NCBI GenBank assembly: GCA_030386875.1
Contig: CM059559.1
Location: 3,903,177-3,967,176 of the forward strand
Length of the DNA stretch: 64,000 bases
Direction of reading: 5' to 3'
From: Morinoia aosen
Taxonomy: Eukaryota; Arthropoda; Malacostraca; Amphipoda; Talitridae
In this document: piece by piece, positions 13,739 through 64,000 of the stretch
How positions within the stretch are numbered: position 1 is the stretch's first letter
How the letters are laid out: each line of letters opens with the position of its first letter
Notes under the pieces: model-generated
Database searches by the model: none
What the model saw: the letters and a program-made list of their open reading frames with translations, nothing else
What the model was told of the DNA's origin: nothing
Program-made: the position numbers and the translations under genes

Positions 13739-13979
13739 AGAAAAAATGCTTTAAAATTATTTACATAAGTAAATTTTGACATTCATTAGACCAGAGAATG
13801 GTTTCCCATTGCACGTTGACTGCGATGGGTTAACTTAAGTTCAACATTCAACTAAAATTTTAAGTAAAAAGCTGTCAGCAATTTTATAATTAGCAAACAT
13901 TAATCCGGGCCTATTCAATATCATTAATTTTAAAATACAGTTAAAACTATTCTAACGACCCATTGATGGGTCGTATCCC

Positions 13980-14082
13980 AAGATTAGATGTTAGCTTGAG
14001 CCTCCCTAACCCCCCAAAAAACTCACATTTTCATTCTGGGAGTGCTAATTCCCGTAGATACAATAGTTGTATTCCCCTGAGG
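13980..14082 (-). mobile_element. SINE-like element, short internally deleted form
   Basis: About 100 bp keeping the GATTAG tail side with GAGCCTCCCTAACC and the palindromic head (GATACAATAGTTGTA, CCCCTGAGGG) but lacking the middle of the family. The same short form is at 34606-34710 in copy 2, so it predates the duplication. It adjoins a decayed TTAA-type MITE at about 13800-13980. Confidence 0.75.
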
Positions 14083-14639
14083 GAAGTCATATCGCAAGCT
14101 ACGTGTTAAACAAGTTTATCTGAAAACAAAATTGGCGCTTGACACCCGGGGGAGAGCGCCCAGTCCCCACACAGGATGAAGTCCTGTCGTCTGCGGGTCA
14201 TCTGTTAGTTTCTCGTAGATATTCTGACGCTTTGTGTTCTTGATTATGCACTGTGAACAAATTTTAAATATGATCCCTAAATTTCAGACAAAATTACATC
14301 CGATATGATGCAATTACACGGCATTAAATTCATTGCATTAATATCAAGTTATTACGTACAAACAACTAATCTTAAAATTGCGCTGGAAAGTTCGATTTGA
14401 CAACTATAAGGGGTACACATCCACTACACTGGAGAATGGTTCCACTGACGCTAGAGTGAAGATTTGCTAGGTCACATTCGCGATGATGCACCCAAAACTG
14501 CACGGCTATTTAACACGAGCTGGAACCGATTAAATAAATTTCACAGTCGAGTAAATATTGAGGAAGCGTTCACATCTAATCAACCGGAATGAATAATTAT
14601 AGCCTAAAGCGTAATTGAAAGGAAAGTAAGACTCAAGAA

Positions 14640-17600
14640 TTACACTTTGCGTTTTTTTGAACCCGATCCAAACGAAGAGCCTTTTCTCTTTGCAGATTTG
14701 GCCCCTGCCAAGAACTTGTCTTCTTCCATTTGGCCCAGCTCCTGAAATGAAAACACACAATGGAAATGACCAAGAAAGAATGATAGAGTTTCATACATGT
14801 GGAGGTAAAAGGTCGTAAACACTACATCGAAGAAAGATTTTAACGAGATAAAATAATAACAAAAAATTTCACGAATTAGACCACGAAAGAATGGTTGTAT
14901 CGTAATTAACGTAGTAGCAGTGAGACATGCTGGCTTCACTAACTCAGCCCATCTTGGGGCGGAAGTATTGAATTCCTCAATGCGAAACAAAAATAATGAC
15001 AACAATTTTCAACAAAACCCTTTAACATGCACTGGATAGTAATAAAAAAAGAACAAAGTTTTTTTTAACAAATATATGACTAATTTTCATCCTATTCGTT
15101 GTCACTTGAATAAAAATTTGACGCAATAGCGAGTAATGGAAAGGAGCGGTACATTTTTGAAACTATAGAAAGGCTCGGCAAATATGTTCTTCAACACTAA
15201 CATGTATGAGTCTAGAACTAGCGCATGTTAATACTGGTTTATGGTTCTATCACACATCAGGCCCTCTATCGCCGTGGTTTAAAATAAAAACAATAAGAGA
15301 GCAATGGAAATTTTCGCGGTAGTTGACAGTCTTACCTATTGGTAGGACCTCTTGGCAAAACTGGCACGTGACCAAAAAAATATAATTCACTTTTAACTAT
15401 TCTACGAAATACGAGACGTGAGTAATGTTAGTTAATTGAGCAAGTCAAGTGGAACGTGTGGTCAAAATGTTGAACTGAACACATGGAACTGGTAGCAAAG
15501 CTGGCCTAAAGCAATGATTTTACATACCTCATTAGCGTTCCGTTCTGCTTGCTTCACAGAGGGCAGGAGAATCTCCACTTCGTCTTCTTCAAAGGGATAC
15601 TCTTTCATTTTAACCTTCAATTTTTTCTCAAGGCCGAAGAACTCCATCACGTCATACTGCGGGAAAGGTGTCGACAGAGGTGAAAAGTGTATTTTGAGCC
15701 GATTCTACGGTCGACAGAACTAAAAAGCGCGTTTTGGGCCTTTATTAGGTCGAATGCGGTGAAACCGTGTCTTAGGGGGGTTCCTAGGTTGAATGCGGTG
15801 AAAGAGTATGTAACAAGTACTACAAAAATCAGTTCAGAACAGACAAATAACAGTGGTATAAATTCCATAAAAAGAACCAAAAATAAAAACTATGAACCCT
15901 GGAAAAAAGTTATCAACAAAAAATTAAAAAACAAAATATTCAGTCTTTACTTATCATTTATAATGAGCAATACGGAAAATTCAATAATATGCAAAGAAAA
16001 TAAAAATGATTTTCACTCGCGATACCACCACACTTGGCCAAGTACGTTATCGTTGTCCTCCACCAAGTAAATAAGACGCTTCACTTTCAATTATGCATAA
16101 GCAGAAAATTTTTTCTGATAACTTGAAAATGAAAGAAGCGTGGCACACTTTCTATGACTCTACACATTCTTTTTCATCTGTACATAGCAGCCGAAACGTG
16201 CGAACGTAGCTCGGTGTAGTACCTCAAAATTGATCACGTTAATGTTCTACACAGCTAAGGGTTCTCGCCAAGTTCAAATGATAAGGGCTGCATATCACTT
16301 GTTCAAATGATAAGGGCTACATATCACTTGTTCAAATGATAAGGGCTGCATGTCATTTGTTCAAATGATAAGGGCTGCATGTCATTTGTTCAAATGATAA
16401 GGGCTGCATATCATTTGTTCAAATGATAAGGGCTGCATGTCATTTGTTCAAATGATAAGGGCTGCATGTCATTTGTTCAAATGATAAGGGCTGCATGTCA
16501 TTTGTTCAAATGATAAGGGCTGCATGTCATTTGTTCAAATGATAAGGGCTGCATGTCATTTGTTCAAATGATATGGGCAACAGGCATATGTTAGCAGCAG
16601 AAACAAAGTAAACGCCAACTCTCCAGAACTGACAAACAAATACGTAAGATCTCTACGCATAAAAGATTGAGGTTCACATGGTTCTCAAAGGCTGGAAGAG
16701 AATTAATGTCAAAGTTAACATTGGCTATGTTGACAGAAAAATAGCTAAGGTTAACCCTTTTACCGTCAAAGTGGATTTCCAAATCCACTTTCACTAACAG
16801 CTCTAATATATTTTATTCCTTGTGAAATTTGTGCCCTAATTTGTTCTTTGAAGTTCATTGTCGAGTGGCAGTCACTTCCTTGTTGTGATGTGGGTGACTA
16901 CGTGATGCTGGTGCCACTTTGTGACAACGGTAATATTAGTACAAAATGTGGACGTTTAAGGGTTCAGTTTTACGTGGTCGCCAGCCATGTGCAACTAAAA
17001 CCAGGTGCAGTGTGGCGTGCAAATCAAAATCCCAGGTCTAACGTTTCGCTTAAAGCGTAGCTGGCACAGCATCACTTTTATCTCAGATCTAAAACATACC
17101 TAACACATACATAATAATTTCATCAACAGATGTACAACTTGCGGCGATAATATCCACCACCTCACGCAAGAGATCCAGCTAATCCTCGCATCAGAAACTC
17201 TTCACAAGCAAGCGAGGGGTATTACAACACCTGAGTAGTGAAGGTGATGCTCTGTCCCTGCTTGCCAGCGCGCGCCGTGCGGCCCACGCGGTGAATGTAG
17301 TCTTTGGTGCTCATCGGCAGGTCCAGGTTAATGACCCAGTCCACGCCTTCGATGTCCAAACCTCTGCAGTGACAGGTTTCAAAATTATGATTACACAGTA
17401 CACGTCTTCTCATATCCAAACCCCTACAATGGCGAATTTTATAATTATGACTACACGTGTTTGATGTCCATGTTCAATTTCTAAACCTCTACAAAGACGA
17501 GTTTCGTAATCATGAGCACCCAGTCCACGTCTGCTATATTCAAACCTCTGCAGTGACAAGTTTCACAATCACTACTACACAATACACGTCTCCTATATCC

Positions 17601-20600
17601 AAAACTCTACAATGACGAATTTTATAATTATAACTACACAGTACACGTGTTCGATGTCCATGTTCAAGGCGCAAACGTCTCTAATGACGAATTTTAAAGT
17701 TATGATTACCCAGTCCACAACTTTGATCTCCACATCAATGGAACAAGAGAATGTAAAATTATTTCTGCCATCGCACTTTTCAGGATCAAATGTATAGAAT
17801 GAGGAATAATGATATAACTACGTGGGTCCACACTACGATATCTAAGACACACAAATAGAAAGAATGATTGGTTCATAAATAATCATCCTCTTCACACATT
17901 TGATGTACCAACGTTGGGATATTCAGCGTCCAAATATATGGTGAAGTGATTTCCATGTTCACACCTTCATCTTTAATTAGCTAAGTCTATAAGTAAATAA
18001 ATATTAAAATAACAAATATCTTATCGACACAGCCTACGCATCTCCTATGAACATACAAATACAACGCTTAAAGGAACAAACTCCATACCGTACTCTCCTT
18101 GACATAATATGGATGGAATTGTTATTAGAAGTCATACCTGAAAGGAAAAGAAAAACATTTCAATTCTTCACAATAAAAATTTAACTTGATGGATCTGAAT
18201 GATGACGTGAAGAAGACCAGCCATCTCAGCGCACAGCCAAAAGAGAAAAAAAAACAATGACCAAGACCAACCTCGAAGCAACGTCAGTGGCGACCAAAAT
18301 ATTGCGTTGGTTCGACTTGAATTTGTGGAGGGCAGCGAGTCTGTTGTTCTGGAGCATCTTGCCGTACAGCGGCACGGACTTGAAAGTGAGGTGAGTGAGG
18401 GTGATGTGCAGAGTCATCGTCCGTTTACGCGTGCCACAAAATATAATGAAAGTATTCTCCTTCACTTTGTGAGCTTTGCATTTGTTCAGGAACCAGACGA
18501 GGTACGCGATCTGAAAAAATGTAAACAAATTATTTTAGCTAATGCAGTTAAATCGATATTTCACGTTACTCTAAACTCATTTTCCCATAAGAAAGCTTTG
18601 AAAAAAACTATCATCTACATCTTAATGAGGTATTGATATCCTGCCCATTGACAATACATTTTAAATTATGACAATTAGTTTGTACCCAGTTCGCTCCTCG
18701 CTCGCCTCTTGTAAGCATCCAAAAACAGCTTGAAAATTAATCAAAGTTTCCATTAACCCAATGAGGATCACAAATCATGGCTCCAAAATATTCCCGGTGC
18801 TTCGACATTCGCTCTGCTTTCTTTTTAAAATGCAATATAAGTTTCATAATGTCTTGGATAATGAACAACATCAAGACCACAGAAATCAACGTTATGTCTT
18901 GGGCAGCACACTGTGTCATGATCACCATTTCTGTCTAAGCTACCAGGACAACTCTACCACCTGCTTTACAGTATATACTACGATGTCTTTGCTCACATCC
19001 AACAAACTCTTAGCTCAGCGATTCATTTCAGGTTTTCATAAGCATAAACAAAATTTTGTCGAGTACTACAAGGTATACCTTGCACTGAAATGCATAAGAA
19101 AATGAAGCTTTGCATAAATATTCAACACCAAAATACAAAGTAGCAAAGTTTAGTTCAGAAGTAACTTGAAGAGCCAAGGTATTCTCGGCAGATGCCGTGA
19201 TCTCTCACCATGCTACGCCATGCTGCACTATCTATGCAAAATTTAAAAAATTTTATTTGATGGCTTTGTCTTTCGCTTTTGCTCCCACACGCATGATGAA
19301 CGGTGGAGTGCAAACACACAGGTAAACGAGTGTTGCGTTAAGGCCCGTTTACACTAGGGGATATTTCGGCCGTGAGGCGCGACACGTGTATACGAGGCTC
19401 ACCACCGAGGCTCATATTTGAGTGTGAATACAAAGTTCCCTATTCGCTATGAGCGAATTCGTGAGGCGCGACACTCAAGAGCCTCGCAACTATCGTAACG
19501 AATATGGAACTTCGTATAGACACACACACATATATGAAACTCACTGGTGAGCCTCGTATACACGTGTCGCGCCTCACGGCCAAAATGTCCCCTAGTGTAA
19601 ACGGCCCTTTAATCATCCGATACCCCCTCAGGGGGATACAATAATTGTATCTATGGGAATTAGCGTACCCAGGGGGACTATGTGAGGGCCTGAGCTAAAG
19701 GTTAGATAGGCTTCCTTTTTGTTGAAATAGAATAGGTTTTTGTTTTGTTACGGACCATCTTTTTTCGGTTCACTACTGTCCTGTTTTTCAGCACCTCTGA
19801 CTTTCTTCTTCAACTTTTATCTTATTTCAAGAACTTCTTTCCCATCTAACTGTTTCTATGCCCTTTCTGCATAGATTCCTCATTTTCTTATCTCCATACT
19901 CAATGGTGCCTTCCTCCTTCCTCTCTTCGATACGCTCTATTTTTGCAGCGGTTAGGGAGGCTCAAACTAACTTATAATCATATAATCATAATCATCCGAT
20001 ACACTTATTTTCTCCACTCGTTTTAATCCACAGCATACACCCTCTTCACATCAGACACACGTGCTTTTCACTGCTTACTTGGTTATCCATCAACCACATT
20101 CAGTTTCCATACTTTCACTACATGACTTTGACACTACAGTCAATCCTACCTACCAACTCTCAATTAACTTGTGTTGATTTAAAGTGTTTCTCAATTTCTA
20201 TTCTATGAGCGTAAAATAATACCCCACAAAATCAAACCCAACACATTCTCACCATAACTACATTTTATATCCCACAAACTCTCTAGACTTAAGTACTCCT
20301 AAGCACCTCAGGTAAGATTCCCTACAAGTTTTTATCTTAGGTGGCAAAGAGCACATCATGGCACGCTGTGCAATTGAGCTGGTGCAGCAGGACGCTACCT
20401 TCTCCTGCTCAGGCACGAGCCTCATGTGTTGCTGCAGGGTGTCTACCGTCTGGAACACTTCATTGACCTTCACTCGCACTGGGTCCACCAGCGATGCTCG
20501 CTCCAATTTTTGGGCCTGTTTAAAAATTTTAATCAGTTGTGGTAAAACAATGATTACTAATATTATTTCTTCTCTTTTGATATATTTCTTTTAGTCTTAT

Positions 20601-23600
20601 AACCTATAAAATAGCTAAAATTAATGACACTGCGCAAAGAGCAAAATTTCATGCTGAGATAATTCACATACACTTTGAAATTGTTGGAGGAAATATTACT
20701 TTACAAAAACTTCAGCGGTAAAAATGCTGAAAAACATTCACTAGATGTAGACATCATGAATTTGAATGTATGTTTTGGAAACTTCAACAATTAGCTAGCG
20801 TTTATGAATAAAACCAATGAATTGCACAAATAAAAACCATGGTAACTCAACATATTATGATGAAACAAGCCAGGCAACACAAAAATGCCAACAAACTGAA
20901 CTGTTTCTTGAAATTCCAACACAAACCAAAAATACGCCTCAACACTGATGCACATTTAAATGAGCTCAAGATGCAAAGTCAGGTCTCTCATCACAATGCC
21001 ACAATGCACAACACAGTCCAGAAGAGAGGGTGGCAAACAGCAGACCAAAAGAGTGGGCTACACACACGACACAATGCTCCACACTTCACACTACAAAACA
21101 CGGATGACTTGACATAACTCATTTGTCCCTTCACTATCTGAATTTTTTGCTCCTGGTTCCATTATCATAACATTTATTGCTATGAGTAGTCTAGAACATC
21201 AGAAAAACGAAGTACTCGCTAATTGGACTTCCAAGGGCAAATTCTAATTCAAAAAGAAGTAAAATATATTATAATTGTTCAATAAAGTAGACTTTTAAAG
21301 CCACCCAGACAGTCAATGGTGTATTATTCTTTTCAAATTACTCAAATTTTGAAAGCTGAGAGTTACCTAACCCAACTCGCTAATTCAAAGTTAAATTTAC
21401 AACCAAGTGCATTTACTAACCCCGTTGCTGCAGCTTGGGCAGGCCCTATTAATGAAACACACAGAAGGGGATAACGAGATAATGGCAATACCTCATAGTT
21501 CAAAGTCAGTAAATTAAATTAATCCTGCAGCATACTCCATTGAAATACTCACATGAATAATAATGGTCACACATAAACTTGAAATGAAAGCTACCAAAAC
21601 GGACAGGAACATGTATAAACTATCTACGAAGTAAACAAAATATCGTAATTGAAGCATCAGCTTCTCCTAAGTCTTGGAACACTACACAGCCTCCCCCCCA
21701 CACACAGAGAACCAACCCTGTCGCAACTCACACTGTTGTTCATGGTGGCAGAGAAGAGCATCGTGCGACGATCTTTGGGCAGCACTCGTATGATGTCATT
21801 CATGTGCTCTTCTAAATCAACGCCCAATATTCTGTCTGCTTCGTCAAACACCTGTAATATCAATAAAAATATCAGTAAACAGTAAGAAAACTGTAGGTAA
21901 CACGTGCCAATATTCCACCCAGTCACGATCATGTATCGCACTAAAATACTGAGGAGACAATACCGACATGCTGGTCACTGAAAATAATGATGATTACCAG
22001 GAGGTGCACAAACTTGGGGACAACTCCACACTCGTCTTTACCAACGCACACGATGTTATACCCTCAGTACAAAATGCTTCATGAGACAGCAAAAATGCAC
22101 ACAAGCAAAATCTAGGGATTTTACCTCTGAATTTCCAATTATATCTGTCTAACAAACACAACGGTACAGAAGTTCCTACACGTTGACACAAAAGAACTTT
22201 CTCTACCAACTGTACCATTGCAAAAGCATAAATTGTTTAAAAACTCGACCCCATCCCAGCAGTGAAGAAGAAATAAGACAATTGAAAAAAATTGCTACGT
22301 TACATAGCATTAATACTCACAGTGTTCCCTGACGACTACCACTTTTACCATCCGTAACCTGACCGAGTGGAAAAAAATATTTGCTCAGAGAGCAGCAACT
22401 TACCAAGTACTTGACATTGTCGAGGGTGAAGCCTCGGGTGCGTCTGAGGTGATCCAGCAGCCTGCCAGGCGTCGCCACGACCACGTGTGGCTTCTCCTTC
22501 AGCTTTATTCTCTCAGCCTTGAAGTCCATCCCTCCAGTCAAGACCACAACCTTCACGCCAAACCGAGAGCCTGAAGTAATCAAAACGATAATCTATTACA
22601 CAACTTTATGACTAGAGTGCACATTTCTCAACTGTGTTATTTTCCAGTATTTTTTTGGTACACAAAAAAGCTTATATTTACAACAAAAATACCGATCAGA
22701 GCACTTACACAGCATCACCATGGCAAAGCACAACCAAGGCTGGTGCAGATGGTTTAGGTAAAATAAGTCAGTTTAAGCCTCTCTAACTATAACAAAGAAA
22801 TTCCAAGAAAAGAAGGAGGAAGGTCTCATTTAGTATGGAGTTGGAAGCATGGGGAATCTAAACACAAGGTGTGTTTGCACACAAAGAAACAGCAAGTTTG
22901 GAAATAGCTTGATGAAGCAAGATTAAAATTGAAGAAGAAAGTGGTAGTTGCTGTAGAACAGGACAGTAGTGAACCAAAAAAAATGGTCCATGACGAAACA
23001 AAACCCTTTTCTATTTCAACAAAAAGAAGACCTATCTAACCTTTGATTTGAGACCTTGCATCTTCTCTCTGAGAGCACTAATTTCCACAGATATAATAGC
23101 TGTATTTCATAGAGAGACGAGGCCAGTACAAGAACTGCACAGTCATGAGAGCAATAAATAACTTCTATTGGTTCCAACAGTGCTTCAGCTTCAAATATCC
23201 CAAGGACAGGTTGACGAAATACTGCAATATTGAAAATGCTCTAATAACTTCAATTTGAAAGCCCAGTATAAAGGTTACTCAGCTCTTATGCTGCAAGTTT
23301 TCCCTTAATCTCATCAGAAGGAAGCAAAATGTTAATCAGAAGAATCTCCTCATGCATTTTCAACAAAATAAGATGCGATACCCCCTCCCCCCCCCCCCCC
23401 CCAGAAAACACAGACATGAAAACCTCTTGCAAGCAAATAAAATAAAACCAATAAATTATAGCTTCATTCAAATTATGTTATTTGATACACGTTCAGATGA
23501 AACTTACTGAGGGCCTCAATGTTGTCTTTGACTTGAAAAGCCAGTTCTCGGGTAGGAGTGAGAACGACAGCAAATAACTTGCTGGGCTTGGCAAGAAGCG

Positions 23601-26600
23601 TCTGCAGCATGGGGATGGCATAGGCACCAGTCTTACCCGACCCTGTCTTGGCCAGTCCAATGATGTCTCGACCTGGAGTAAAACATACGTTTGAGTGAAA
23701 CTCATGTTGGCTTGTTCATACACGTATACAGTACGTACATATTTATTAAGGAATCTTTACATTCTTACTGATGGATAATCACTGACCAAATAACACTTTG
23801 AACATTCTTTGAAAATATTTAATGCCTGTACAGTTATTGGCATGATATGATAGCACAAAAAAATGCACACTTACATATGTTAGTTTAACATACAAAACAA
23901 AGCAGCTGATCACCATATGATGCTCACACCATGAAGGTATAAAAGACAGGAGACCGCGCTACGCAGCCGCGCCTCAGTGCAGATTGAAGCTAGCTCGGGC
24001 CGCAATCAGCCACTCGGGAGGGGTACCAAACACTGTACTGCATAGGAATAAATTCACGTTTCAGGCTATAACTACACAACTATATCGAATAATTGTTAAA
24101 AAACGCAAAGACACCAACCTGAAACATTAAACTACATGACAGGTGCTAAAAAACAGCAATGCATTGCAAATGAAACAAATTTACAGAAGAGGAAACAGAG
24201 CAATACTCACGCAAAACTGAAGCGGCGGCGGCGGCACACCGTCAGCCACTCAGCCATTGCTGCACAGCGCACACGGGCCGGCACTATGTGCGCGTACAAC
24301 CATTTGACGCACACGTGTACAGCTCTTTATTTATTCTTTTTTCTTTTATAATTATAATGTAAAAAAATCTATAATATATTCAACTTATTAATAATATATC
24401 GAGTTCGCACGATCAATAATGTACTGTCGATATTTCTATCAGTAGTTGCTCGGACTTTCTATTGGAAGTGGTTAATGTTGTGCTTAAATCAGGGCCAAAA
24501 AATTTTGAGCTACTAATTGTTTTGCTACAGAAAAAGAGACGAAATCGGAAGAAATCGGGGGAGGAGTGGATTTTGAAACGCAATATGCACACTTATGGGA
24601 ATTGATTTAATGGTATAAGGGTAACGGAGCTGGAAGACTTTTATAACCAGCTCCGAATGAACGATGATATATATTATTAGCTTCTGGATATTTTGAATAA
24701 CCGAGGAAGATTCCACAAAGAGGGGAGGCATTTCAGTAATGAGAGACCGGCTCTAACTCTACGATTTTTGGCAACTGGACGAACTCTTGGTTGCGTTCAC
24801 ACGTTCATATAGAGTACTTTCCATCAAACCAAGAATGCTCAAATTTTGATGAAATTTCAAAAAATTTTGATCACATAAATATTTTCATCAGTCTATCAGT
24901 ATGCCGTTCAGACGATCAATATATTTACACTAATAGTAAATATTTTAAGTAATATTGATCGTGTGAATGCTGCTTTAAGAACATAAGTTAGTAATGAGCT
25001 GTTGAGGGGGATGCGTATTATTTTACACATTTGAAACGCTATAACTCAAAAAGTAGAGATTGCCGAATGAAATGGTTTTCAAATTTGAATTCTACGCAGA
25101 ACAATACTGTGCAAATATGTATAGCCTATTAAATAACAAACGAAATTAAAATACACGGGCCTGAACTGCAATTTTACTTAAGCCTTCTCCAAAAGTATGA
25201 ATGTTACCTAGATTTAGTGCTTACTTGTGCAACGAGATGTTATTCTTTTTGTCGTTGCGAGCATTGCAACCGTAAGCGCTGCAGGAATTCACCATGTTGC
25301 CAGCAGCGACACACTAACACAACGACGGTCTGACAATCACTGCTTACTACACTAGAGCAGTGGTTCAAGGTCGGAAGGCATAGCCATACGGACTGCTAGC
25401 ACACAGCCAGCTAGGTTACAGGAAACGCATCCAGCGCTCCCTCCTGTCTTTTATACCTTCATGGCTCACACTAGTATATTCTTTAGCCTGCACATGTTGA
25501 CTAACTCAGTTACCAGATCAGAGAAGCTCTATATATTAATTTAGTTGTACACACAATATCATACTTGAAAATCATTGCAGTAATTTTGTGACCGAACACT
25601 TTCTGGTTCTTGAAAATTGCTTGAATTTTAGATTCATTTCAATGAAGGAAATTGCATATCACTTAAATTAAGATAAAATTTTAGTCTCTGCAAAAAATTT
25701 CAAAACTGCAAATAGAAACTGAAATAATTCTAAAAATTTCAAGGGACTCCGTGCTTATAGAAAATTTCATTAGTCACCATCCAAAACTATTTTTTTAATA
25801 CAATTCAAATTTTCATTTCATATTTTTTCTTCATAAGAGTAATCTACTCTTATTAACATTAGAGTAACTTCAGAGACTACTTGTTTTCAGAGTATCACAT
25901 TCCTAGGAGTTACACAAAAAACCATAATTCACACAAATTTTTATACATGACAGAAAATTCCAAGGTTTCATTACAATTTACTATACTTCTTAAGTTATTT
26001 AAACAGTTCAGATTTCATTTTCTAGAAGATGTCCCATTTTCACAAAAAACAGCACTTGATAACTTGAAAGAGCAACACAGTAGGTCAATAAGAATTACGT
26101 AGAGTTTACTAATTAGCCACAGCAGAGTTGACCCACCACTGAGAGCTGCCGGGATGGCCTTCACTTGGATGGGAGTAGGAGTCGACCACTTGACTCTCTC
26201 ACATGCATCACAGAGCTCCTGGACAACTCCCTGCACAACATAGACATAGCATTAAATTGGGGTCCACATTTTTGTGTGCAGGCCTCACTCTTAGGCTCAA
26301 GCTGTAAGTGGCTAGTTGCAAACTTTTTATAATAAAAGAACAATGAAATTTAACAGTAACACATTTACTAGCACATTAACATGTTGACTGCAATACAAAC
26401 CATCAATGAGTCGTTTGAAAAAGTAATAATAATCATTTAAAATTAATGGTATTTAATGGACCCAGTTAATGTTTGGTATTAATAAAATTTCTGACAATTT
26501 ATGAATTTAAATTTTAGTTGAATACTGAACTTCAGTTTAATCCATCTCAGTCAAAGTATTAATTAATATCTGCACAAGTCTGTTTACATTAGAGATACAA

Positions 26601-27617
26601 CATGACAAACACCTCTAAGTTACACAGTCCCAGGCATCCAAGTTTTAACATCTTTTGGCTATATTTAACCATCTGTATTTCCTATTACCAATGATACATC
26701 TGATACTTGTTGGAAACTCTCAGAAATACAACATAAAACCTTTCCCCTTGAATAAACTGCACAATTTATTTTTAGACATACTCTACTATAAACTATTCTT
26801 GGTGATTAACTAATGTAAACTAATCTCATGAACTAACGACAATGCAACACTTTTTAAACATGTCAAAACAACACTCGCTATTTTAGTTATGTTTCTGATT
26901 AGGGATACTAATGCCAACATCTCAAATGCTTGCGTCATCATGTCATCATCATAGGGGTACTATTTTTTATTATTTTAGGAATTTTGAGATGAGTTCTCAT
27001 GTTATGTCAGATATTTAATCTGTACAACCTTAGGATACCAAAGCTTCTCTGCCTTTATTTTGAAAAAAAAAAAAAAATCAAATTATCTTTTGTCAATTAT
27101 GGAGCTCAGTAAAAATCCATGATTTTTAAAATAAATTTTCCCACTCATTAATATGGATTTTTGCAATTTTTTCCCTACAAAGGAAGAACAGTTGGCTAAC
27201 TAGAATCTATCGCTACACACATGATGCCCCACGAACACCAATTGGTCTAAGTCATTGAGCAAGGCAAACAAAAATTCACCTAATTTGCACCTTATAGCAT
27301 GGAAATTCAACAGTGCTTATTGATCCTGGGGTGTTATCAAATGACCTTTCCAAACACTAAAATATTTTTTGGCAAATAGTTGATGTTTATAGATATTCAT
27401 TCAATGAAAATTACATGTACTATTTCAATAATGACAAATTTAAAACATTGGATTTATAATTTTCAGCATTTTTGGAATAAAATGTAAAGTATGATATACT
27501 TTAATGGTAGTATACCAATGATTTAATACCAACTTACTGATACATTTCATTTTTAATGTTGCACTAAATACTTACCAATTCCTTGAAAGTTGTAGGAGTC
27601 TCTTCCTTTGAACTCAT
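14640..27617 (-). CDS. DDX47: DDX47 / Rrp3-type DEAD-box RNA helicase, complete
   Basis: Ten exons with GT-AG introns and consistent phases: 27576-27617, 26137-26230, 23508-23672, 22404-22570, 21732-21851, 20399-20515, 18272-18510, 17231-17363, 15528-15656 and 14640-14741, encoding about 435 residues (human about 455). Motifs in order: Q motif with Gln36, Walker A AKTGSGKT 53-60, PTRELA 85-90, TPGRL 134-138, DEAD 159-162, SAT 190-192, ATDVASRGLD 309-318, [10 protein letters not shown] 339-348. The last residues, KKRKV, look like a nuclear localisation signal. DDX47/Rrp3 is known to act in nucleolar pre-rRNA processing for the small subunit. DDX47 is preferred over other DEAD-box proteins because of the spacing, SKPHxx/[15 protein letters not shown] and [17 protein letters not shown] context. 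The start is the first Met of exon 1, which has the short N-terminus usual for the family. No disabling change seen. A decayed second copy lies at 35264-57376. Confidence 0.95.
16272..16580. repeat. 29-bp hairpin minisatellite, copy 1 (about 11 units)
   Basis: Units of 29 bp: CAAATGATA, a nine-base loop AGGGCTGCA, TATCATTTG, then TT. Each unit is a self-complementary hairpin with a 9-bp stem; variants with TGTCATTTG break one pair. It lies in the DDX47 intron between exons 8 and 9. The corresponding array in copy 2 has about 36 units. Confidence 0.95.
16755..16965. mobile_element. Candidate TTAA-target MITE
   Basis: Starts TTAA-CCCTTTTACCGTCAAAG and ends TTTAAGGGTTCA. Counterparts lie at 38105-38330 (the same insertion in copy 2) and at 39521-39740 (a third, independent copy starting TTAA-CCCTTCACCGTCAAAA). 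The independent copy shows it is a dispersed element. Non-coding; superfamily not certain. Confidence 0.55.
17320..17745. repeat. Degenerate repeats of the exon 8 splice acceptor in intron 7, copy 1
   Basis: About six diverged units of roughly 60 bp. Each resembles the real intron 7/exon 8 junction, with a block like ATATCCAAACCTCTGCAGTG on the plus strand. The unit near 17525-17560 reproduces CACTGCAG plus an exon-like start that would read [11 protein letters not shown], against [11 protein letters not shown] in the true exon 8. Confidence 0.75.
19342..19608. mobile_element. TTAA-target MITE with long inverted ends
   Basis: A 267-bp element flanked by TTAA at 19338-19341 and 19609-19612. 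Ends begin GGCCCGTTTACACTAGGGG and are inverted for about 65 bp, including CGTGAGGCGCGACACGTGTA. No coding capacity. TTAA plus such ends fits a non-autonomous piggyBac or Kolobok element. Confidence 0.8.
19624..19988 (+). mobile_element. SINE-like element, full length, plus orientation
   Basis: A 365-bp family member in the opposite orientation to most others, flanked by a perfect 14-bp target duplication TAATCATCCGATAC at 19610-19623 and 19989-20002. The head hairpin is at the left and the ATAATC-repeat tail at the right. It landed at the right edge of the MITE at 19342-19608. Confidence 0.88.
22755..23115 (-). mobile_element. SINE-like element, diverged copy
   Basis: Recognised by GAAGGAGGAAGGTCTCATTTAGT, AGGACAGTAGTGAACC and AAAAAGAAGACCTATCTAACC, with a decayed head near 23080-23115. 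Lies in the DDX47 intron between exons 3 and 4. Target duplications not resolved. Confidence 0.75.
23930..25463. mobile_element. P-element-like non-autonomous DNA transposon
   Basis: A 1534-bp element with 23-bp perfect terminal inverted repeats starting CATGAAGGTATAAAAGACAG and a perfect 8-bp target duplication GCTCACAC at 23922-23929 and 25464-25471. Drosophila P elements also have ends starting CATGA and 8-bp duplications, so a P-type assignment is reasonable but inferred. No transposase reading frame is seen inside. Lies in the intron between DDX47 exons 2 and 3, within the block missing from copy 2. Confidence 0.82.
26380..26558. mobile_element. TTAA-target MITE, diverged
   Basis: Flanked by TTAA on both sides with inverted ends around GTTGACTG / CAGTCAAAG, and an interior like the element at 10267-10487. 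Lies in the DDX47 first intron. The corresponding sequence in copy 2 is cut at about 56268, where the copy 2 deletion ends inside this element. Confidence 0.6.
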
Positions 27618-34326: not shown

Positions 34327-34363
34327 TGTCGGCTGAAGAACCGGTTGGGGCCAGAAGAAAAAA
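34327..34363 (+). pseudogene. Candidate first exon fragment cut by the duplication edge
   Basis: A plus-strand ATG in good context (ACCGAAAATG) reads MSAEEPVGARRKKE and then runs into copy 2 sequence at about 34364. It would be transcribed away from DDX47, in a position expected for a divergent neighbour. Not recognised as a known family. It may be chance. Confidence 0.3.
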
Positions 34364-34605
34364 AGAAAAAAATGCTTTAAAATTATTTGCATAAGTAAAT
34401 TTTGACATTCATTAGACCAGAGAATGGTTTCCCATTGCACGTTGACTGCGATGGTTTAACTTAAGTTCAACATTCAACTAAAATTTTAAGTAAAAAGCTG
34501 TCAGCAATTTTATAATTAGCAAACATTAATCCGGGCCTCTTCAATATCATTAATTTTAAAATACAGTTAAAACTATTCTAACGACCCATTGATGGGTCGT
34601 ATCTC

Positions 34606-41115: not shown

Positions 41116-41331
41116 TGTTCGTTGATCATTTTTTTATGCCGAGCTCGGAACGCAGTCGTCCTTCTCCAGCAGCAGCTGCTGTTTGTAGGCCAGGGTGTCC
41201 TGCGGTCTACCGTAGATGCCGGTGGCCATGGACGCCATGGTCTTTTTAGGTGTAGGCCTTTATCGCGCACGCAAGACCTTAGTGTATTAAGATCATCACT
41301 TTCTAATTTCTCTATTTCTTCCTTGGTGGGC

Positions 41332-43311: not shown

Positions 43312-43581
43312 TTCTCTTTGCTTCAGGAAGTCGAGGTTCCTTTTTATTTTTCTTGGTTTTCAGGATAATAATAATAATAATGAGGGGTGTTGATACAATC
43401 AACATTAAAGCACGGACACGGGTCCTTTACTGCTCCCCTTTATGCATGTCGTCTGCGATCGAAAGGTCGATTTAGAAACTCATCATTAAAGGTAAGTCAA
43501 TTGCAATGCAAAGTTACTGAAACATTTAAATTAGGTCGTAGACATCTATCACACGAAGATAGTTCATTAATTCCTTGACGT

Positions 43582-46500: not shown

Positions 46501-47249
46501 AACATCGGCTTGTTCCATGCATTGTTATTGGAATATAGATCCCAGTTAGCTTTTGAGTAGTTCCAGATAGTTGATGGGGGTTGGTTGGGACGATTTTCGT
46601 CAAGGTAGGTGATCAAAATTGGGCAATGATCGCTATCACCCGGCGAGTCGAAAGCAACCCAGTCTAGTAGCACGGCCAATGTAGGTGAGCAAATTGTCAG
46701 ATCAATAGCTGATTCTGAATTGTATCCTACTCTAGTGGGTGAACCGGTATTTAATAGGCAAAGGTTATTGTTTGCAATAACAGTTTCTATCAGCTTCCCC
46801 CTATTATCTGTATTCTTGCAGCCCCATATGGTGCTGTGTCCGTTGAAGTCACCGGCTAGGATGAAAGGGTTCGGTAGTTGGTGGATTAGGTTATTTAGTT
46901 TTTCGTTTGTGACTGTTTGTCTACCGGGTATGTAGATGCTGCAGATGGTTATCAGCTGTCCTATGTTTACTTGAATGGCCACGCTTTGTAGTTCAGTCTG
47001 TAGATTCAGTTCACAAAAAGGTATTGAGCTATGGACATATATTCCAACACCTCCATGGGGGGTTCTGTTGTAATGACCGTGTCGTAGCACATTACTGTAG
47101 CCGTTTATTCTAAACTGGCAGTTATCCCATAGCTTTGTTTCTTGAAGTGCTATTATACTGGGTTGGTGGTTGTTTATTGTTTCCATTAGTTCATCTTTCT
47201 TTCCCCTGATGCCTTGGCAGTTCCACTGCAGGATTCCCACGTTAGCCAT
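43582..47249 (-). pseudogene. LINE ORF2: endonuclease, reverse transcriptase, RNase H (one frameshift)
   Basis: The first part (45411-47249) has an apurinic-like endonuclease: NWNCQG-like start (QWNCQGIRGK), QETKLW, AGDFNGHS and SDHCPI. RT motifs NYRPIALTS and FFDLEKAYD follow. The reading frame shifts near 45490-45500, and the RT continues in 43582-45387 with GVPQGSVLS and the catalytic YVDD. RNase H then shows YTDGSRGE, a Glu in AEIHAI, YCDSL and a final Asp in GNDAAD. The C-terminus has a cysteine-rich CEFCNNSTLTVKHLIIEC motif. One base appears lost against the expected frame; the rest is open. ORF2 starts 42 bp after the ORF1 stop, suggesting reinitiation or coupled translation. Confidence 0.9.
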
Positions 47250-47290
47250 GGGGTGTTTGATTTGATTTTGTTATTCAATCGTTCAATTGG

Positions 47291-49822
47291 TTACTTTCTT
47301 TTGGGTGATCTATCTCTAATCCTAGAGTCACGAGAGTAGTGTGATTGTTCCTCATCTGAGTAAATTTGTCGTTTATCATGTCTGTTGCGGCTGTAGGTGG
47401 GGGATCGTGATTTTGATCGTGATCTTGGTCGCTTCTTGTTTTGGGTTTTGGAAGGTTTGTGCTGCTTTGGGGGTTTGAATTCGTTGAATATTCGTCTGGC
47501 TTCTTGTCTCATAATAGGGTTGCATTCGCTCGTGCCATCTTCCTCATTTTCAGATCCTTCGGCTGTAGTTTCAATATTAATTGTGGATTTGAGCAATTGT
47601 GCTGGGTTGGGTTTAATGCGGAGTATCTCTTTTTCACATGTTTCGTGGTCGCGTTGTGAAGTTTGCGGTGGTTTGGTTTCTGGTGTATCGGTTGTGTTAT
47701 CAGTTGTACCTGGTTGGGGAGCCATATTTTGTTCGGTGATCGTTTGGTTTTTGGTAGCCGCCATAAAGGGTTGGGGTGTTGGTACTTTAGGTATTTGATC
47801 CGTTCGATTTCTGGTTATTTGTGCGTAGCTTTGATCGAGTTGTGGGGATCGTTTGTGGTATATTATAAGGGCTTGTTCTCTTGATACGTTTTGTTTAGTA
47901 CGGATAGAAATTAGTTCTTGTTGCTTGCGTTGTTCCGGGCAAGTCCGGTCTCCAGTTTTGTGATTGTTTCCGCAGTGGTAGCATGTCAAGTTGTTTTCCG
48001 TGCAATTTGTTGCTTCATGGCCTTTTGTTGCGCATTTTCCACACACGAACTCTTCACTGGTACATCTTTTAGCAGTATGGTTGTATTCCAAGCACTTTTT
48101 ACACATCATAGGGCGGTCGAAGTATTCATATATCCTACTCTTGCAGTCTTGGCCAAGGATGTCGATATACTCAGGGGGGGTTGAGCCTCTGAAAGTTAGA
48201 AGTATTGCTTTTGCATTTGTGTTACGGCTTTTTATCCAATTTGCTGGTTCAACATTTTTGATTATCTGGTTTTCCATTAAACCTTGTTTGAACTTCTCGA
48301 AGTTGGTGAAGTCGTAGTTATAGATGTAGGCAAGTCCTTTTGAAAGATTTACATAGTTATTTTCTGTTACTTGCACAGGGATGTTGTTTATGTCTTTGAT
48401 TTTCTGTATTTCATCTTTTTGTCGTGTGTGATCTAATTCTACAATAAATGTGTTTTTGCCGCCCGATCGAATAGATTTGGGTTTTCCTTGGATTTGGTTT
48501 GCAATACATTTCTCTAGGAGCCATGGAGTAATTTTCCGCTTTTCGTTTTCCTGCATTGTTATATTGAAATGAGTTGTGGGGGTGTTCGTATCTGATATTG
48601 GTATCTCGGAGTGTCCTGTGACTATCTGTACAGCACGACGCCTATTAACTCGTTGTTCTTGTTGGACTTTGCATATTTCTGTTTCCATGATATGTTTCGG
48701 GCATTCTCTGTGGCCAGTTTCATGTTGACGCTTGCAATGCATGCAGGAGAGGGCGCTGCCACATTGTTCGCTGTCATGGCCTGTTTCTCCGCAGCGTTTA
48801 CAGTTTGCTTCGTTATGGCAGTGTTTGGCTGTGTGGCCGTAGTTTTGACATTTGTGGCAGATCATTGGTCTATTAATAAATGGGTATACTATCGTATCTG
48901 ATTTTTCGCCTGGGATATATATAGAGTCTGGTGTAGTGTAGCTATTAAAGGTTAGTAGGAGTGGGGTGGTTTGGGAGAATCGAGTTTTAATGAAGCTGGC
49001 ACGGACAGCGTCACTGATATTGTACTGGCTCTTCAGGCCTTCCACAAAATCTTCCATATTATCTACATCGTATTCTTGAATATATATTAGTCCTTTGGAT
49101 TGATTGTAGTATGGGTGTTCGCTGATCTGGCAATTAATGCCGTCGACGTTATTAAGTCTGGTGATGCGCTCAGATTGGGGTTTGTTTCGAGTTTCTATGA
49201 TAAAGCTATCTTTACCTGAATAAGTTATTCTTTTCGCCTTTAAACCAGTTATTTTGACTATTTCTTCTTGGAGGCAAAATGGATTTATTTGGTTTCTTTC
49301 TTCGATTTTGAATTTGACCGAGAAGAACTTTGTATAATGGTCGTTCTTCGTCATTTCTTGGTTCAACGATATGGGTGTGTATTTGTTAGCTTTGCATTGT
49401 TTTCTCACATTTTCTTTCTCGCAGCCCATGATTTTACTGTTTTTTCCTATGTTCTGCGCTTTCGTCATTTCTAGGATTTTTCCGAGTGTATTTTCGATTT
49501 TCCTTATTCGATCGTCTACATTTTGTGCTTCTTTTTCAACTTCATGTTTATCGGGGTTGATGCATTTGGTTGCATCATCTGCCGCAAGTCTATTCAGCAC
49601 TTCATTTAATTTAGCCTCCAATTGGTCCACCTTACAGGTAGCACCGTTTGGTTCCGGTGGAGTTTTTTCGGTTGTTTGGTCAAATGTTTCATTGTTTTCG
49701 CTTATCTTCCTGGTGATATTGTTAGTTTTGGGGTTTGTTGCACCTACGTTGGTAGCAGTGCTTAGGTTGTTTTTGTTGGGGTTTATTCGTTGTTTTAATT
49801 TGTTTTCATTTTTGGCGTACAT
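47291..49822 (-). CDS. LINE ORF1 with two tandem gag-like modules
   Basis: An open frame of 843 codons. After a basic N-terminus and a coiled coil (about 65-120) comes module 1 (about 163-405): an RNA-binding-like fold segment with SKGLIYIQEYD, then three zinc knuckles, C322-C335, C341-C354 and C360-C374. Module 2 (about 418-655) repeats the order with SKGLAYIYNYD and knuckles C574-C587, C594-C607 and C614-C628. The modules align throughout (NRPMICHKCQNYGHTAK against DRPMMCKKCLEYNHTAK) but are diverged, so the duplication is old. The last 45 residues are rich in Ser-Arg. It is expected to bind the element RNA; the role of the second module is unknown. Confidence 0.92.
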   Translation of the reverse strand: MYAKNENKLKQRINPNKNNLSTATNVGATNPKTNNITRKISENNETFDQTTEKTPPEPNGATCKVDQLEAKLNEVLNRLAADDATKCINPDKHEVEKEAQNVDDRIRKIENTLGKILEMTKAQNIGKNSKIMGCEKENVRKQCKANKYTPISLNQEMTKNDHYTKFFSVKFKIEERNQINPFCLQEEIVKITGLKAKRITYSGKDSFIIETRNKPQSERITRLNNVDGINCQISEHPYYNQSKGLIYIQEYDVDNMEDFVEGLKSQYNISDAVRASFIKTRFSQTTPLLLTFNSYTTPDSIYIPGEKSDTIVYPFINRPMICHKCQNYGHTAKHCHNEANCKRCGETGHDSEQCGSALSCMHCKRQHETGHRECPKHIMETEICKVQQEQRVNRRRAVQIVTGHSEIPISDTNTPTTHFNITMQENEKRKITPWLLEKCIANQIQGKPKSIRSGGKNTFIVELDHTRQKDEIQKIKDINNIPVQVTENNYVNLSKGLAYIYNYDFTNFEKFKQGLMENQIIKNVEPANWIKSRNTNAKAILLTFRGSTPPEYIDILGQDCKSRIYEYFDRPMMCKKCLEYNHTAKRCTSEEFVCGKCATKGHEATNCTENNLTCYHCGNNHKTGDRTCPEQRKQQELISIRTKQNVSREQALIIYHKRSPQLDQSYAQITRNRTDQIPKVPTPQPFMAATKNQTITEQNMAPQPGTTDNTTDTPETKPPQTSQRDHETCEKEILRIKPNPAQLLKSTINIETTAEGSENEEDGTSECNPIMRQEARRIFNEFKPPKQHKPSKTQNKKRPRSRSKSRSPTYSRNRHDKRQIYSDEEQSHYSRDSRIRDRSPKRK

Positions 49823-51034
49823 ACTCCCGGCTTCAGAGGGGGTTTCCCCGCCTCGAAGTCGGGGTTTGAGGTATTCGCTGATTGTTGCCAGAAGTGCTTA
49901 AAGTTTTACTTTGGGATCCAAAGTAGTAAACCAAAATGGACTATTGGTCTGCGTAACTTAAGTCTATTCTTATAGGTTATTTAAGGGCCCTGGAGTATAG
50001 GGCAAATTAAAGAGAAAATAACTACGCAAATGAGACCCAAGCTCCGAAGAGCTCGGGCCGCCGCCCGACTTTGTTCTACCCAACAACGGGGAATTGGAAA
50101 AAAAACCTAAAATCTTAATCCCTCGAAAGAAAACTCAAAAGATAGAGGAAAGAGCAGTTGGGTATTTCAACGGTACCACCACGAGAAGGTGCCGGGTCAG
50201 CTGGATACCTGCTCGTGAGTAGGTATTCCTGTATCAATCCTTGTCTACGACTTCTTTCCCTTCACCAAGCTCAATAATTCAATAATTTGGTACCAGTAAA
50301 ACGTGGTAAAGGGAACAGTGAAAATTCCTTTTCAGGATTCAAAGTCCTTCTTTTATTTTCTTCTGCTTCAGGGAGTCAAGTCCTCCTGTTTTATTTTAGT
50401 TTTTCTTAGCTTTCAGGAATCGTAGTCCTTCTGTTCTATTTTAGTTTTTCTTAGTTTTCAGGATTCGTAGTCCTTCTGTTTTAGGCGCCAAATTGTTAAA
50501 TAGTTCGTATGGCAGTCCCTTAGTTCGGGGGCCAAATTGTTGAATATTCCGTTTGGCTGTATCCACATTGGGCGCCAAAGGCTAGATAGTTTCCCTATTT
50601 TAGGGTTCTGAGGGCCGTAAGTTCCAAGGCTTTTATTCCGGAGAATCTTCCTGATTTTTCAGGGATATGAGAGAAGTCAGTTGCTGAGTATTTATTTTAT
50701 TAAGGCGAGGGCTTTTTAACAGTTTCCAAGTTGCGAATATTATTCGGTAATTTTTGGAGTCCGATCTGGTTACAAGGTTTGAAGATTTGAGCTGGTTTTT
50801 CAAGCTTTCTAAATTTGAGTCGAGACGAATCAAGCTAAGTTTTTCGCGCTGGTAATACAGGCTTAGAAAGTTAGAGCCGAAATGAAATTCGAGCTGCGAA
50901 ATTTGAGCCGATATAAAAATCAAGCTTTGAAGTTTTAGAGCCGACGAATTCCGGCTATGGAGCTTTACACACTAGTAATGCAGGCGTCGAAAGTTAGAGC
51001 CGAAATGAAATTCGAGCTGATATAAAAATCAAGC

Positions 51035-51173
51035 TGTTGAAATTTTCAAATCTGAGACGGATATATGCTTCTCAAGTATCTGTGATACGAGAGTTTATTT
51101 ATGCGAGGAGAATTATTTTCCCTCCTGTTAAATTATATAGGCACAAGTTGGCATCTTCGACAATAGCCTGACA
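51035..51173 (-). repeat. LTR, high-coordinate copy
   Basis: 139 bp, paired with 40135-40273. Confidence 0.9.
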
Positions 51174-52044: not shown

Positions 52045-52435
52045 CTCGAAGCAACGTCAGTGGCGACCAAAATATTGCGCTGGTTCGACTTGAATTTGTG
52101 GAGGGCAGCGAGTCTGTTGTTCTGGAGCATCTTGCCGTACAGCGGCACGGACTTGAAAGTGAGGTGAGTGAGGGTGATGTGCACAGTCATCGTCCGTTTA
52201 CGCGTGCCGCAAAATATAATGAAAGTATTTTCCTTCACTTTGTGAGCTTTGCATTTGTTCAGGAACCAGACGAGGTGCGCGATCTGGAAAATGAGAAATT
52301 ATTTGAGCTAATCTAGTCAAATCGACATTTCACGTTGCCCTAAACTCATTTTTCTATAAGAAAGCTTTGAAAAACTATCATCTACATCATACTCAGGTAT
52401 CAATATCACACCCATTGACAATACGTTTTAAATTA

Positions 52436-54770: not shown

Positions 54771-57700
54771 GCCCAATGAGGATTAGAAATAATTGCCCCT
54801 AAGTATTTCCGGTACATCAAAACTCGCTCTTCTCTCTTTTTGAAATGCAATATAAATATTATGATGTCTTGGACACTGATCGACATCAAAACCACAGAAA
54901 TAAACCTCATCACTTGAGCAGTACTCTGTGTCATGATCATAGTATCAGTCTCAACTACCAGGACCACTCTAGCACCTGCTTTACAGTACACAACAAGCTC
55001 CTGGCTCAGCGATTCACTTGCAAGTTTTCACAAGCATAAACAAAATTTTGTGGAGTACAATGTACGTCTCACAATGAAGTGCGGGAGAAAATGAAGGTTT
55101 GCATAAATATTCAGCACCAAAATACAGGAATAAAGTTTAGGTCAGAAGTAATTTGAAGAGCCAAGGTATTCTCAGCAGATGCCGTGGCAAAGAGCATATC
55201 AAAGCACGGGGTGCTATTGAGGATAGAGCAGCAGGACGTTACCTTCTCCTGCTCAGGCACGGGCTTCATGTGTTGCTGCAGGGTGTCTACCGTCTGGAAC
55301 ACTTCGTTGACCTTCACTCGCACTGGGTCCACCAGCGATGCTCGCTCCAATTTTTGTGCCTGTTGAAAAATTTTAATCAGTTGTGGTAAAATAATGATTA
55401 CTATTATTATTTCTTCTCTTTCATTATATTTCTTTTAGTCTTATAACCTATAAAATAGCTAAAATAAACGACACTGCGCAAAGAGCAAAACTTCATGTTG
55501 AGATAATTCACCTACACTTTGAAATTGTTGGAGGAAGTATTACTTCACAAAAATTTCAGTGGTAAAAATGCTGAAAAAATATTCACTAGATGTAGACATC
55601 ATATATATAAACTAAATGAATTTGAATGTATGTGTTGGAAATTTCAGCAATTAGCTGAAGTTTATGAATAAAACCAATTCAAAGCACAAATGAAAACCAT
55701 GGTAACTTTACATATTGTGATGAAACGAGTCAAGCAACAGCTGACTGTAACGCTTGCCTTGAAAAGTGTCGTTAGCAAATCTCATTCCTTAAAATGCCAA
55801 CACAAACCAAAAATACGCCTCAACACTGATGCACATTTAAATGAGCTCAAGATGCAAAGTCAGGTCTCTCATCACAATGCCACAATGCACAACACAGTCC
55901 AGAAGAGAGGGTGGCAAACAGCAGACCAAAAGATTGGGCTACACACACGACACAATGCTCCACACTTCACACTACAAAACACGGACGACTTGACATAACT
56001 CATTTGTCCCTTCACTATCTGATTTTTGCTCCTGGTTCCATTATCATAACATTTATTGCTATGAGTAGTCTAGAACATCAGAAAAACGAAGTACTCGCTA
56101 ATTGGACTTCCAAGGGCAAATTCTAATTCAAAAAAGTAAAATATATTATAATTGTTCAATAAAGTAGACTTTTAAAGCCACCCAGACAGTCAATGGTGTA
56201 TTATTCTTTTCAAATTACTCAAATTTTGAAAGCTGAGAGTTACCTAACCCACCTCGCCAATTCAATGTTCTGACAATTTATGAATTTAAATTTTAGTTGA
56301 ATACTAAACTTCAGTTTAATCCATCTCAGTCAAAGTATTAATTAATATCTGCACAAGTCTGTTTACATTAGAGATACAACATGACAAACACCTCTAAGTT
56401 ACACAGTCCCAGGCATCCAAGTTTTAACATCTTTTGGCTATATTTAACCATCTGTATTTCCTATTACCAATGATACATCTGATACTTGTTGGAAACTCTC
56501 AGAAATACAACATAAACCTTTCCCCTTGAATAAACTGCACAATTTATTTTTAGACATACCCTACTATAAACTATTCTTTGTGATTAACTAATGTAAACTA
56601 ATCTCATGAACTAACAACAACGCAACACTTTTTAAACATGTCAAAACAACACTCACTATTTTAGTTATGTTTCTGATTAGGGATACTAATGACAACATCT
56701 CAAATGCTTGTGTCATCATGTCATCACCATAAGGGTACTCTTTTTTATTATTTTAGGAATTTTGAGATGAGTTCTCATGTTATGTCAGATATTTAGTCTG
56801 TACAACCTTAGGATACCAAAGCTTCTCTGCTTTATTTTGAAAAAAAATTCAAATTTTTTTTGTCAATTATGGAGCTCAGTAAAATCCATGATTTGTACAA
56901 TAAATTTTCCCACTCATTAATATGGATTTTTGCAATTTTTTCCCTACAAAGGAAGAACAGTTGGCTAACTAGAATCTCTATCACTACACACATGATGCCC
57001 CACAAACACCAATTGGTCCGAGTCATTGAGTAAGACATTGAGTATTTCCTTATAGCATGGAAATTCAACAGTGCTTATTGATCTTGGGGTGTTATCAAAT
57101 GATCTTACCAAACACTAAAATATTTGTTGGCAAACAGTTGATGTTTATAGATATTCATTCAATGAAAATTATATGTACTATTTCAATAATGACAAATTTA
57201 AAACATTGGATTTACAATTTTCAGCATTTTTTGAATAAAATGTAAAGTATGATATATTTTTAAAGGTAGTATACCAATGATTTAATACCAACTTACTGAT
57301 ACATTTCATTTTTTATGTTGCACTAAATACTTACCAATTCCTTGAAAGTTGTAGGAGTCTCTTCCTTTGAACTCATTATAATGCTGATTTCTACAGAAAT
57401 AATTCAAAAAGTAAAACAAAATTTTAAATCAAGCTCAGTACCAAACACTGAAACCTTCTCGTACAGTCTTCTTCAACAAAATGCTGGAAAAAACAAGTCT
57501 TTAAATTAGAACAATTGTACCACTGTATTGCTTGACAGAAAACATACACTAATTCACTTTTACTTTTTCTATAAGGTTGACAACCATGCATGTCTTATAC
57601 TTAGGTTAAAAGGAATTGATGAAAAGTTTCCACCAATTTTAGTACAATGTATATTTCATCGGCTACAAAATGACTTGAATAAATTTATTTATGCTAAAAA

Positions 57701-62940: not shown

Positions 62941-62990
62941 GAAGTCGTCAAATAAATAATTTATTATTGAACGAAGTATTTACTAACCTT

Positions 62991-63720
62991 TCAAAAAATA
63001 GCTCCTTCTTCAGCACTGCTGTATAAGTCCTCTTGCGTCATCAATTTGAGTAATTCATGTGAAGGCTGCCATTTCATGCAGTTAGTGCCACTAAGTAAAC
63101 TTTTGCAGTAAAGAAAAGCGTTTGAAGTTTCTGTTTTCAACAAAGACCTGTTTTTACGTTCAATATTATATAAAATCAAAAATATTCTTTCGGCACACGC
63201 TGAGGAATGAGGCAACGCAAGTAGGCTCATCATTAACTTTGATAATAGTGGATATCGAAGTCCATCACCGCATTTTTCTTTTGAAACAATGTACCAGAAG
63301 TTTTCAGGTTTCTTGTCAGTTATACGATTCGTGTCCTCCAAGGTGAGCTCTCGCCACTCGGTATTCAGTGTTTCGAACTCTTCTTCAGAAATGATGTTAG
63401 GAAATTTTAAGGCAAAAGGAATAATGGAGGCAGGTTTTCCCACATTAACGTTGGCGGGGTCCATAGCCTCAAGTAATTCCAACTTTTTAAGCATTTCATT
63501 CGAGAGAAAACGGCTAAACATTTCTTTCATTAATCGTACATAAAAATTCCAGATATTCACTCGAAATTGTAAAAGGTCCTTGTCAGAAATTTTTTCAGAA
63601 TTCTCGCAATAAACAGCTTCTACTTTGGCCCCAGGGTAAATTTTCTCAATTGGAAGGTAGACCGAAGGATCATTAACAGCAATTTCCGCTAGAATATTAA
63701 CGAAAATTTCGTTTGCGTTA
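62991..63720 (-). pseudogene. hAT-type transposase C-terminal fragment
   Basis: The frame from about 63720 to 62991 (about 240 residues) ends with SLLALPHSSACAERIFLILY and NRSLLKTETSNAFLYCKSLL, the hAT family C-terminal dimerisation region. The track of codons from 63560 starts at a GTG; the frame in fact continues upstream (DKDLLQFRVNIWNFYV). The catalytic N-terminal two-thirds is missing and no terminal inverted repeats were found. It could instead be a domesticated hAT-derived exon, but the short length between two LINE copies favours a fragment. Confidence 0.75.
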
Positions 63721-63949
63721 ATTTTGCAGTAAGTTCGTTTAAATAATGCTTACCAATGACAGCGCGAAAGACACCGGTACCTTTTGTTCAGCCGCATTTG
63801 ATGTCTCCACTGATTGAGGAATCTTCGCAAACATTAGCAACCAACCCTGGTAAGGGGTCCAAAATAGAGACAATTAAGTTGTGTTCTGCGACGAAGACGC
63901 AAAGTTTTAGTTCAGCTGCAGCAACTTTGTTTGGGTGAAGCGATATCGT

Positions 63950-64000
63950 ACTGGGTTGCACTTGAACTTGAACTTGAACTTGAAATTGAGGGCCGACAGC
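63950..64000 (-). mobile_element. 3' end of another TTCAAG-tail LINE, cut by the window edge
   Basis: A CTTGAA hexamer repeat (plus strand) followed by TTGAGGGCCGACAGC, the same 3' end as at 60972-61010. The body lies beyond the window. Confidence 0.75.

Follow-up and report, generated by a model that had tools for sequence, protein, structure and literature searches.

A 64,000-nucleotide stretch of the genome of the amphipod Morinoia aosen (bases 3903177–3967176 of contig 4; hereafter the window) contains two copies of a gene resembling DDX47, a DEAD-box RNA helicase of a type thought to act in ribosome biogenesis, and a third copy lies just to the left of it on the same contig. The third copy is called A, and the first and second copies within the window are called B and C, respectively. 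The copies are arranged head to tail; A and B have ten exons each and C has six, and the nearest relative of each copy changes along the gene. Judging from these features, we consider it rather likely that the three are real loci, together making up a tandem array of a single DDX47-like helicase. The processes to which it points, namely tandem duplication, gene conversion and partial loss, are ordinary ones. Should each of the three loci be real, the helicase dose may differ from the usual one.

Three copies of a DDX47-like gene

The assembly comprises 1.99 Gb in 29 contigs, and 190 kb of contig 4 around the window was examined. All coordinates are window numbers, with negative values lying to the left of the window. 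The original prediction described a segment followed directly by a homologous copy of itself, and self-alignment together with reading of the junction bore this out: unit B occupies 13741–34359 on the minus strand, and unit C, on the same strand, starts at 34367 and runs to the window end at 64000 and on to about 82036. The view that there are only two copies had to be abandoned, as the genome search gave a third ten-exon copy outside the window, unit A, at about -25.5k to -4.7k. This copy, and the duplicated flanks described below, had been missed because the earlier reading covered the window only.

When human DDX47 was aligned to the 190 kb, eight exons were found in A, eight in B and four in C, all on the minus strand. 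Exon 1 was located by a splice-pattern search, and exon 10 by three-way alignment of the copies. Self-alignment and the exon models showed that the copies are homologous, introns included. A processed (retro)pseudogene was accordingly rejected, since introns separate the exons in A, B and C. The predicted exon counts of ten for the first copy and six for the second were confirmed by the exon models.

The B gene extends from 27617 to 14640 and has an uninterrupted frame of 435 amino acids with the DEAD-box motifs present. Its exons are exon 1 with the start codon (27576–27617), exon 2 (26137–26230), exon 3 with motifs I and Ia (23508–23672), exon 4 with motif Ib (22404–22570), exon 5 with DEAD and SAT (21732–21851), exon 6 (20399–20515), exon 7 (18272–18510), exon 8 (17231–17363), exon 9 (15528–15656) and exon 10 with the stop codon (14640–14741). 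The A gene extends from -10938 to -24698, and its frame has only 429 amino acids because the stop falls six codons ahead of the end of B. This early stop, in exon 10 of A (-24597 to -24698), takes away a basic SKKRKV tail that is kept in B; A and B may possibly differ in nuclear localisation as a result. Between A and B, the synonymous divergence (dS) was 0.052 and the replacement divergence (dN) 0.006 over 1302 coding sites. The ratio of about 0.12 fits purifying selection on both genes, to which the time before the duplication may have contributed in part, and B, as well as A minus its last six codons, would still be able to encode a full helicase.

The DDX47-like identity given to the gene in the original prediction held. 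The gene resembles the DDX47/Rrp3 DEAD-box RNA helicases in its helicase motifs and in its best PDB match, 3BER, which is human DDX47 and whose chain spans the first lobe only; the next match, bacterial CshA, had a nearly equal score and covered both lobes. It differs in that it is 49.7% identical, over 441 columns, to the human DDX47 sequence used for comparison. A genome search with the B protein, which scored 97 of 340 candidates, placed every match above 60% identity within one of the three copies. A second, divergent pair of DDX47-like genes was observed on contig 8, at 21476901–21483500 and 21608501–21615200. The two members of this pair are 131 kb apart and 99.5% alike over 5.9 kb, have matching exon borders, and are about as close to human DDX47 as the array gene is, so that the latter is a candidate one-to-one orthologue of DDX47.

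Mosaic divergence among the three copies

Subsequently, the three copies were compared in eleven blocks, chosen where A, B and C all align. About 25 columns were trimmed off every block edge and 60 extra off the end of block 5, leaving 9084 columns; the blocks cover part of the unit of about 20.6 kb. In the four blocks at the 3' end of the gene (blocks 1–4a; B 13.8–17.4 kb), B and C differed by 1.4–2.05% and A differed from both by 7.6–13.4%, the A-B difference being 7.6–12.8%. In blocks 4b–7, A and C differed by 0.7–2.4% and B from both by 6.5–17.5%. In block 8, which lies around exon 1, the closest pair was A and B (2.0%), and C differed from both by 4.45–5.05%. A and C were again closest in block 9 (2.3%), and A and B in block 10 (3.6%), where C was 6.3% from both. 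At its 5' end, C is thus 2–6% from its nearest copy. A difference of 2–3% between the two copies in the window had been estimated earlier. This agrees with the first 3.6 kb or so (1.4–2.05%), but beyond it the B-C difference is 4–18%: the values for the seven blocks past 17.4 kb were 8.1, 7.4, 17.5, 6.5, 4.5, 7.8 and 6.3%, the final block lying, in C, to the right of the window. For mosaic copies, comparing just two of them and quoting a single divergence value is misleading.

The change of nearest relative was marked in the counts of sites at which one copy alone differs. The numbers of A-only, B-only and C-only sites were 112, 10 and 16 in block 1, and 9, 62 and 3 in block 7. Heterogeneity of the nearest relative over the eleven blocks gave a chi-square of 703 with 20 degrees of freedom. 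Furthermore, when the 638 A-only and B-only sites were divided at a single point, the best split gave a statistic of 344, and the maximum among 5000 permutations, in which sites were taken as independent, was 23. The nearest relative thus shifts abruptly along the gene, as would be expected from ectopic gene conversion or unequal crossing-over. Uniform divergence with one time order was rejected by the block comparison. It had been proposed that the insertions specific to each copy allow a time order; this holds locally but not overall, because the nearest relative of C varies from one part to another and no single order fits.

The first switch of nearest relative falls at B 17566–17666, in and just beyond a 59-bp minisatellite of 2.8 units listed in B at 17483–17648, whose homologue in C (38700–39023) has 5.4 units. 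Two further features follow the same patchwork. A stretch of intron 6 with a piece of reverse transcriptase (Pfam match in C) aligns through between A and C and is lacking in B. A 29-bp minisatellite was listed in both C (36897–37928, 35.6 units) and B (16272–16578, 10.6 units), and no such array was listed in A. Taken together, the change of nearest relative from block to block, the intron 6 stretch common to A and C, and the minisatellite common to B and C suggest that segments were probably exchanged or copied among A, B and C.

The following course of events would account for this pattern. Sequence types about 7–18% apart in the mostly intronic blocks may already have been present; the array as it now stands, in which the closest pairs are about 1–2% apart in most blocks, would have arisen from them at a later time through duplication, ectopic gene conversion and unequal exchange. 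C would thereby have come to consist of a B-like 3' end (exons 8–10), an A-like middle (exons 6 and 7) and an exon 1 stretch about equidistant from A and B. C would also have lost exons 2–5, or have arisen without them, and would have gained retrotransposons and a premature stop in exon 10.

The truncated copy C

The gene in C extends from 57376 to 35264 on the minus strand and consists of exon 1 (57335–57376, found by the splice-pattern search), exon 6 (55243–55359), exon 7 (52045–52283), exon 8 (38594–38726), exon 9 (36153–36281) and exon 10 (35264–35365), the fourth codon of which is a stop. The missing exons 2–5 hold motif I, DEAD and SAT. The deletion junction is at 56268/56269, and its counterparts are 21392–26489 in B and -15646 to -12065 in A. 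This point coincides with the place where the likeness of C to A ends; hence it may reflect either a simple deletion or a join of two different copies. Exons 2–5 total 546 nucleotides, so that their loss preserves the frame. Indeed, all six remaining exons have intact GT/AG splice sites and frames open as far as the exon 10 stop, exon 1 joined to exon 6 stays in frame, and a product of 223 amino acids is predicted. C had been described as decayed. The loss of exons 2–5 and the stop in exon 10 agree with this description, but the remaining frames and splice sites are intact, and the decay appears to be mild.

These features raise the question of whether C makes a short protein, one that contains the second RecA lobe and lacks the first, rather than being a dead pseudogene; this is compatible with any of the readings of the array. 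In exons 6–9, the C-only changes comprise one replacement and three silent changes, against about 3.9 replacements expected. The expectation was taken from the C-only rate of blocks 1–7, which include some exons, and an assumed replacement share of 77%. This deficit points in the same direction as the preserved frame and splice sites, but it is not significant (P about 0.10). Moreover, the missing half carries the ATP-binding and DEAD motifs, the C-only changes include a leucine-to-proline change as well as the early exon 10 stop, and an insert of 11 kb sits in intron 7. A short protein from C is thus improbable. That C is a frame-preserving hybrid expressing the 223-residue fragment, which would have been retained to modulate the full helicase from A and B, we regard as a quite improbable extension of the same idea.

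As predicted, the second copy has been enlarged by insertions, and its greater size is largely due to transposons. The C-specific insert in intron 7 (40135–51173, minus strand, 11.0 kb) has TG...CA ends, terminal direct repeats of 139 bp (96.4% alike) and a 5-bp target-site copy. It contains an open reading frame (ORF) with a gag-protease match slightly below the Pfam cut-off, and also endonuclease, reverse-transcriptase and RNase H ORFs, which we read as a nested element without long terminal repeats (non-LTR). The terminal repeats differ at 5 of 139 columns, a number too noisy for dating. A second element in C, to the right of the window (68962–79390), has direct repeats of 2.04 kb that are 99.1% alike (17 mismatches in 2039 columns) and is probably a young LTR-type element.

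Array layout and duplicated flanks

The order on the contig is X1 - A - Y1 - X2 - B - C - Y2, where X and Y are duplicated flanks. Y1 starts at about -4259, and its right-hand part occupies 1–4923 of the window. It aligns with Y2 (89235–97531) at 98.7% over 6401 columns and 97.2% over 2349; in one piece on the gene side the identity is 94.1%. X2 (4921–13209) aligns with X1 (about -37620 to -25902) at 96.7% over 6080 columns and, near the gene, at 92.3% over 1385 and 89.4% over 671. A 1-kb test piece of Y (window 200–1200) and one of X (window 7000–8000) each had exactly two locations in the genome. The junction of Y1 and X2, at about 4921–4923, has a 3-bp overlap and no N, and lies directly beyond a 20-bp tandem array. 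The B/C junction (34359–34367) is a single point in A-rich sequence, likewise without N. No assembly gap of the kind usual in false haplotype duplication was found between the copies, there being no N in the 190 kb. Outside the duplicated region, a 3.0-kb piece of the left outer flank had no second near-full-length match among the matches listed (40 of 2551 candidates scored); the first 1.2–1.4 kb of this query is a high-copy repeat, so that single copy is not demonstrated there. A 3.0-kb piece of the right outer flank also had no second near-full-length match among the matches listed (40 of 758 candidates scored). Within Y1, a 51-bp minisatellite of about 36 units (1707–3558) is interrupted by a dispersed element at about 2139–2487; its counterpart in Y2 (95184–96160) seems, on reading by eye, to be without the interruption.

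The tandem layout agrees with one half of the original proposal, that the two copies are either a young duplication in mid-decay or a second haplotype; with three copies and a patchwork of relationships, this choice is too simple. The haplotype half, that B and C are two haplotypes end to end and not a tandem pair, has in its favour that X flanks B and Y flanks C and that the join is one point. However, A must then be a true extra copy, as three sequences exceed two alleles. There is no N, and the B-C divergence spans 1.4 to 17.5% between blocks. This explanation is highly improbable.

A more serious alternative is that X1-A-Y1 and X2-B-C-Y2 are two haplotypes of one locus, placed end to end at 4922, one chromosome carrying a single gene and the other a true B-C tandem. 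Several observations weigh in this direction and against three real loci. Both sides are collinear, each with X, gene and Y, as expected of two haplotypes end to end; the break falls exactly at the end of Y1 and the start of X2; and the X and Y test pieces occur exactly twice. The flank divergence, mostly 1.3–3.3% (1.3–2.8% for Y and 3.3% for outer X), also suits two alleles, which in polymorphic invertebrates may differ by about this much. In addition, a helicase search that scored 93 of 214 candidates gave 31 loci off contig 27, among which five pairs have equal or near-equal scores, the pairs being judged by eye and only that on contig 8 aligned as DNA. Finally, PMC9516828 describes false copies that had been connected by erroneous gap filling, as well as a true allele-specific tandem duplication inside one contig.

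On the other side, the Y1/X2 junction is continuous, whereas most, though not all, false duplications have, according to that article, an assembly gap between the copies. The A-B difference is 7.6–12.8% at the left (3') end of the gene, where allelic similarity would be expected. Furthermore, 13 of 14 RNA-polymerase and chaperonin genes were found in a single place and one in two places, 0.68 Mb apart on contig 1 (read by eye); this count leaves out the rows on contigs 26 and 27, which are of bacterial type or mixed. We therefore regard the end-to-end arrangement of two haplotypes as rather unlikely, and three loci, which would all lie on one chromosome, as the better explanation. In either case, a diploid has no more than two alleles to account for three distinct sequences, if one individual is assumed, which makes it probable that at least one duplication is real.

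Other observations in the assembly

At about 55–73 Mb of contig 27, helicase, COX1, RNA-polymerase and chaperonin genes of bacterial type and without introns were observed in large number. They may represent contaminating DNA, or associated bacteria whose sequences were merged into a single contig; because of these genes, the assembly seems to be uncleaned. COX1 copies of equal score were found on contig 28 (2209 and 20565, 18.4 kb apart), contig 29 (8500) and contig 26 (20754486 and 21030211), which suggests repeated mitochondrial units in the assembly. When read by eye, the COX1 of the assembly fits the invertebrate mitochondrial code, with AAA as lysine in the conserved NHKDIG and AGA as serine, and the mitochondrial order was nad2, trnL, nad3, trnS, trnF, trnQ, trnG, cox1, cox2, trnK, trnD and an apparent atp6.

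Comparison with known systems

The array is a compact case of a helicase gene reshaped by tandem copies, by transposons and by a breakpoint in a minisatellite. It shares with the false heterotype duplications described in PMC9516828 the adjacency of the copies and flanks that differ by an allele-like amount; unlike those, it has no gap, contains three distinct sequences and shows divergence far from uniform. Young tandem duplicates shaped by ectopic gene conversion or unequal crossing-over have the same head-to-tail arrangement, patchwork of nearest relatives, minisatellite breakpoint and single truncated copy. From these the array differs in no point of principle, its three-way mosaic and duplicated flanks being more complex than a simple pair.

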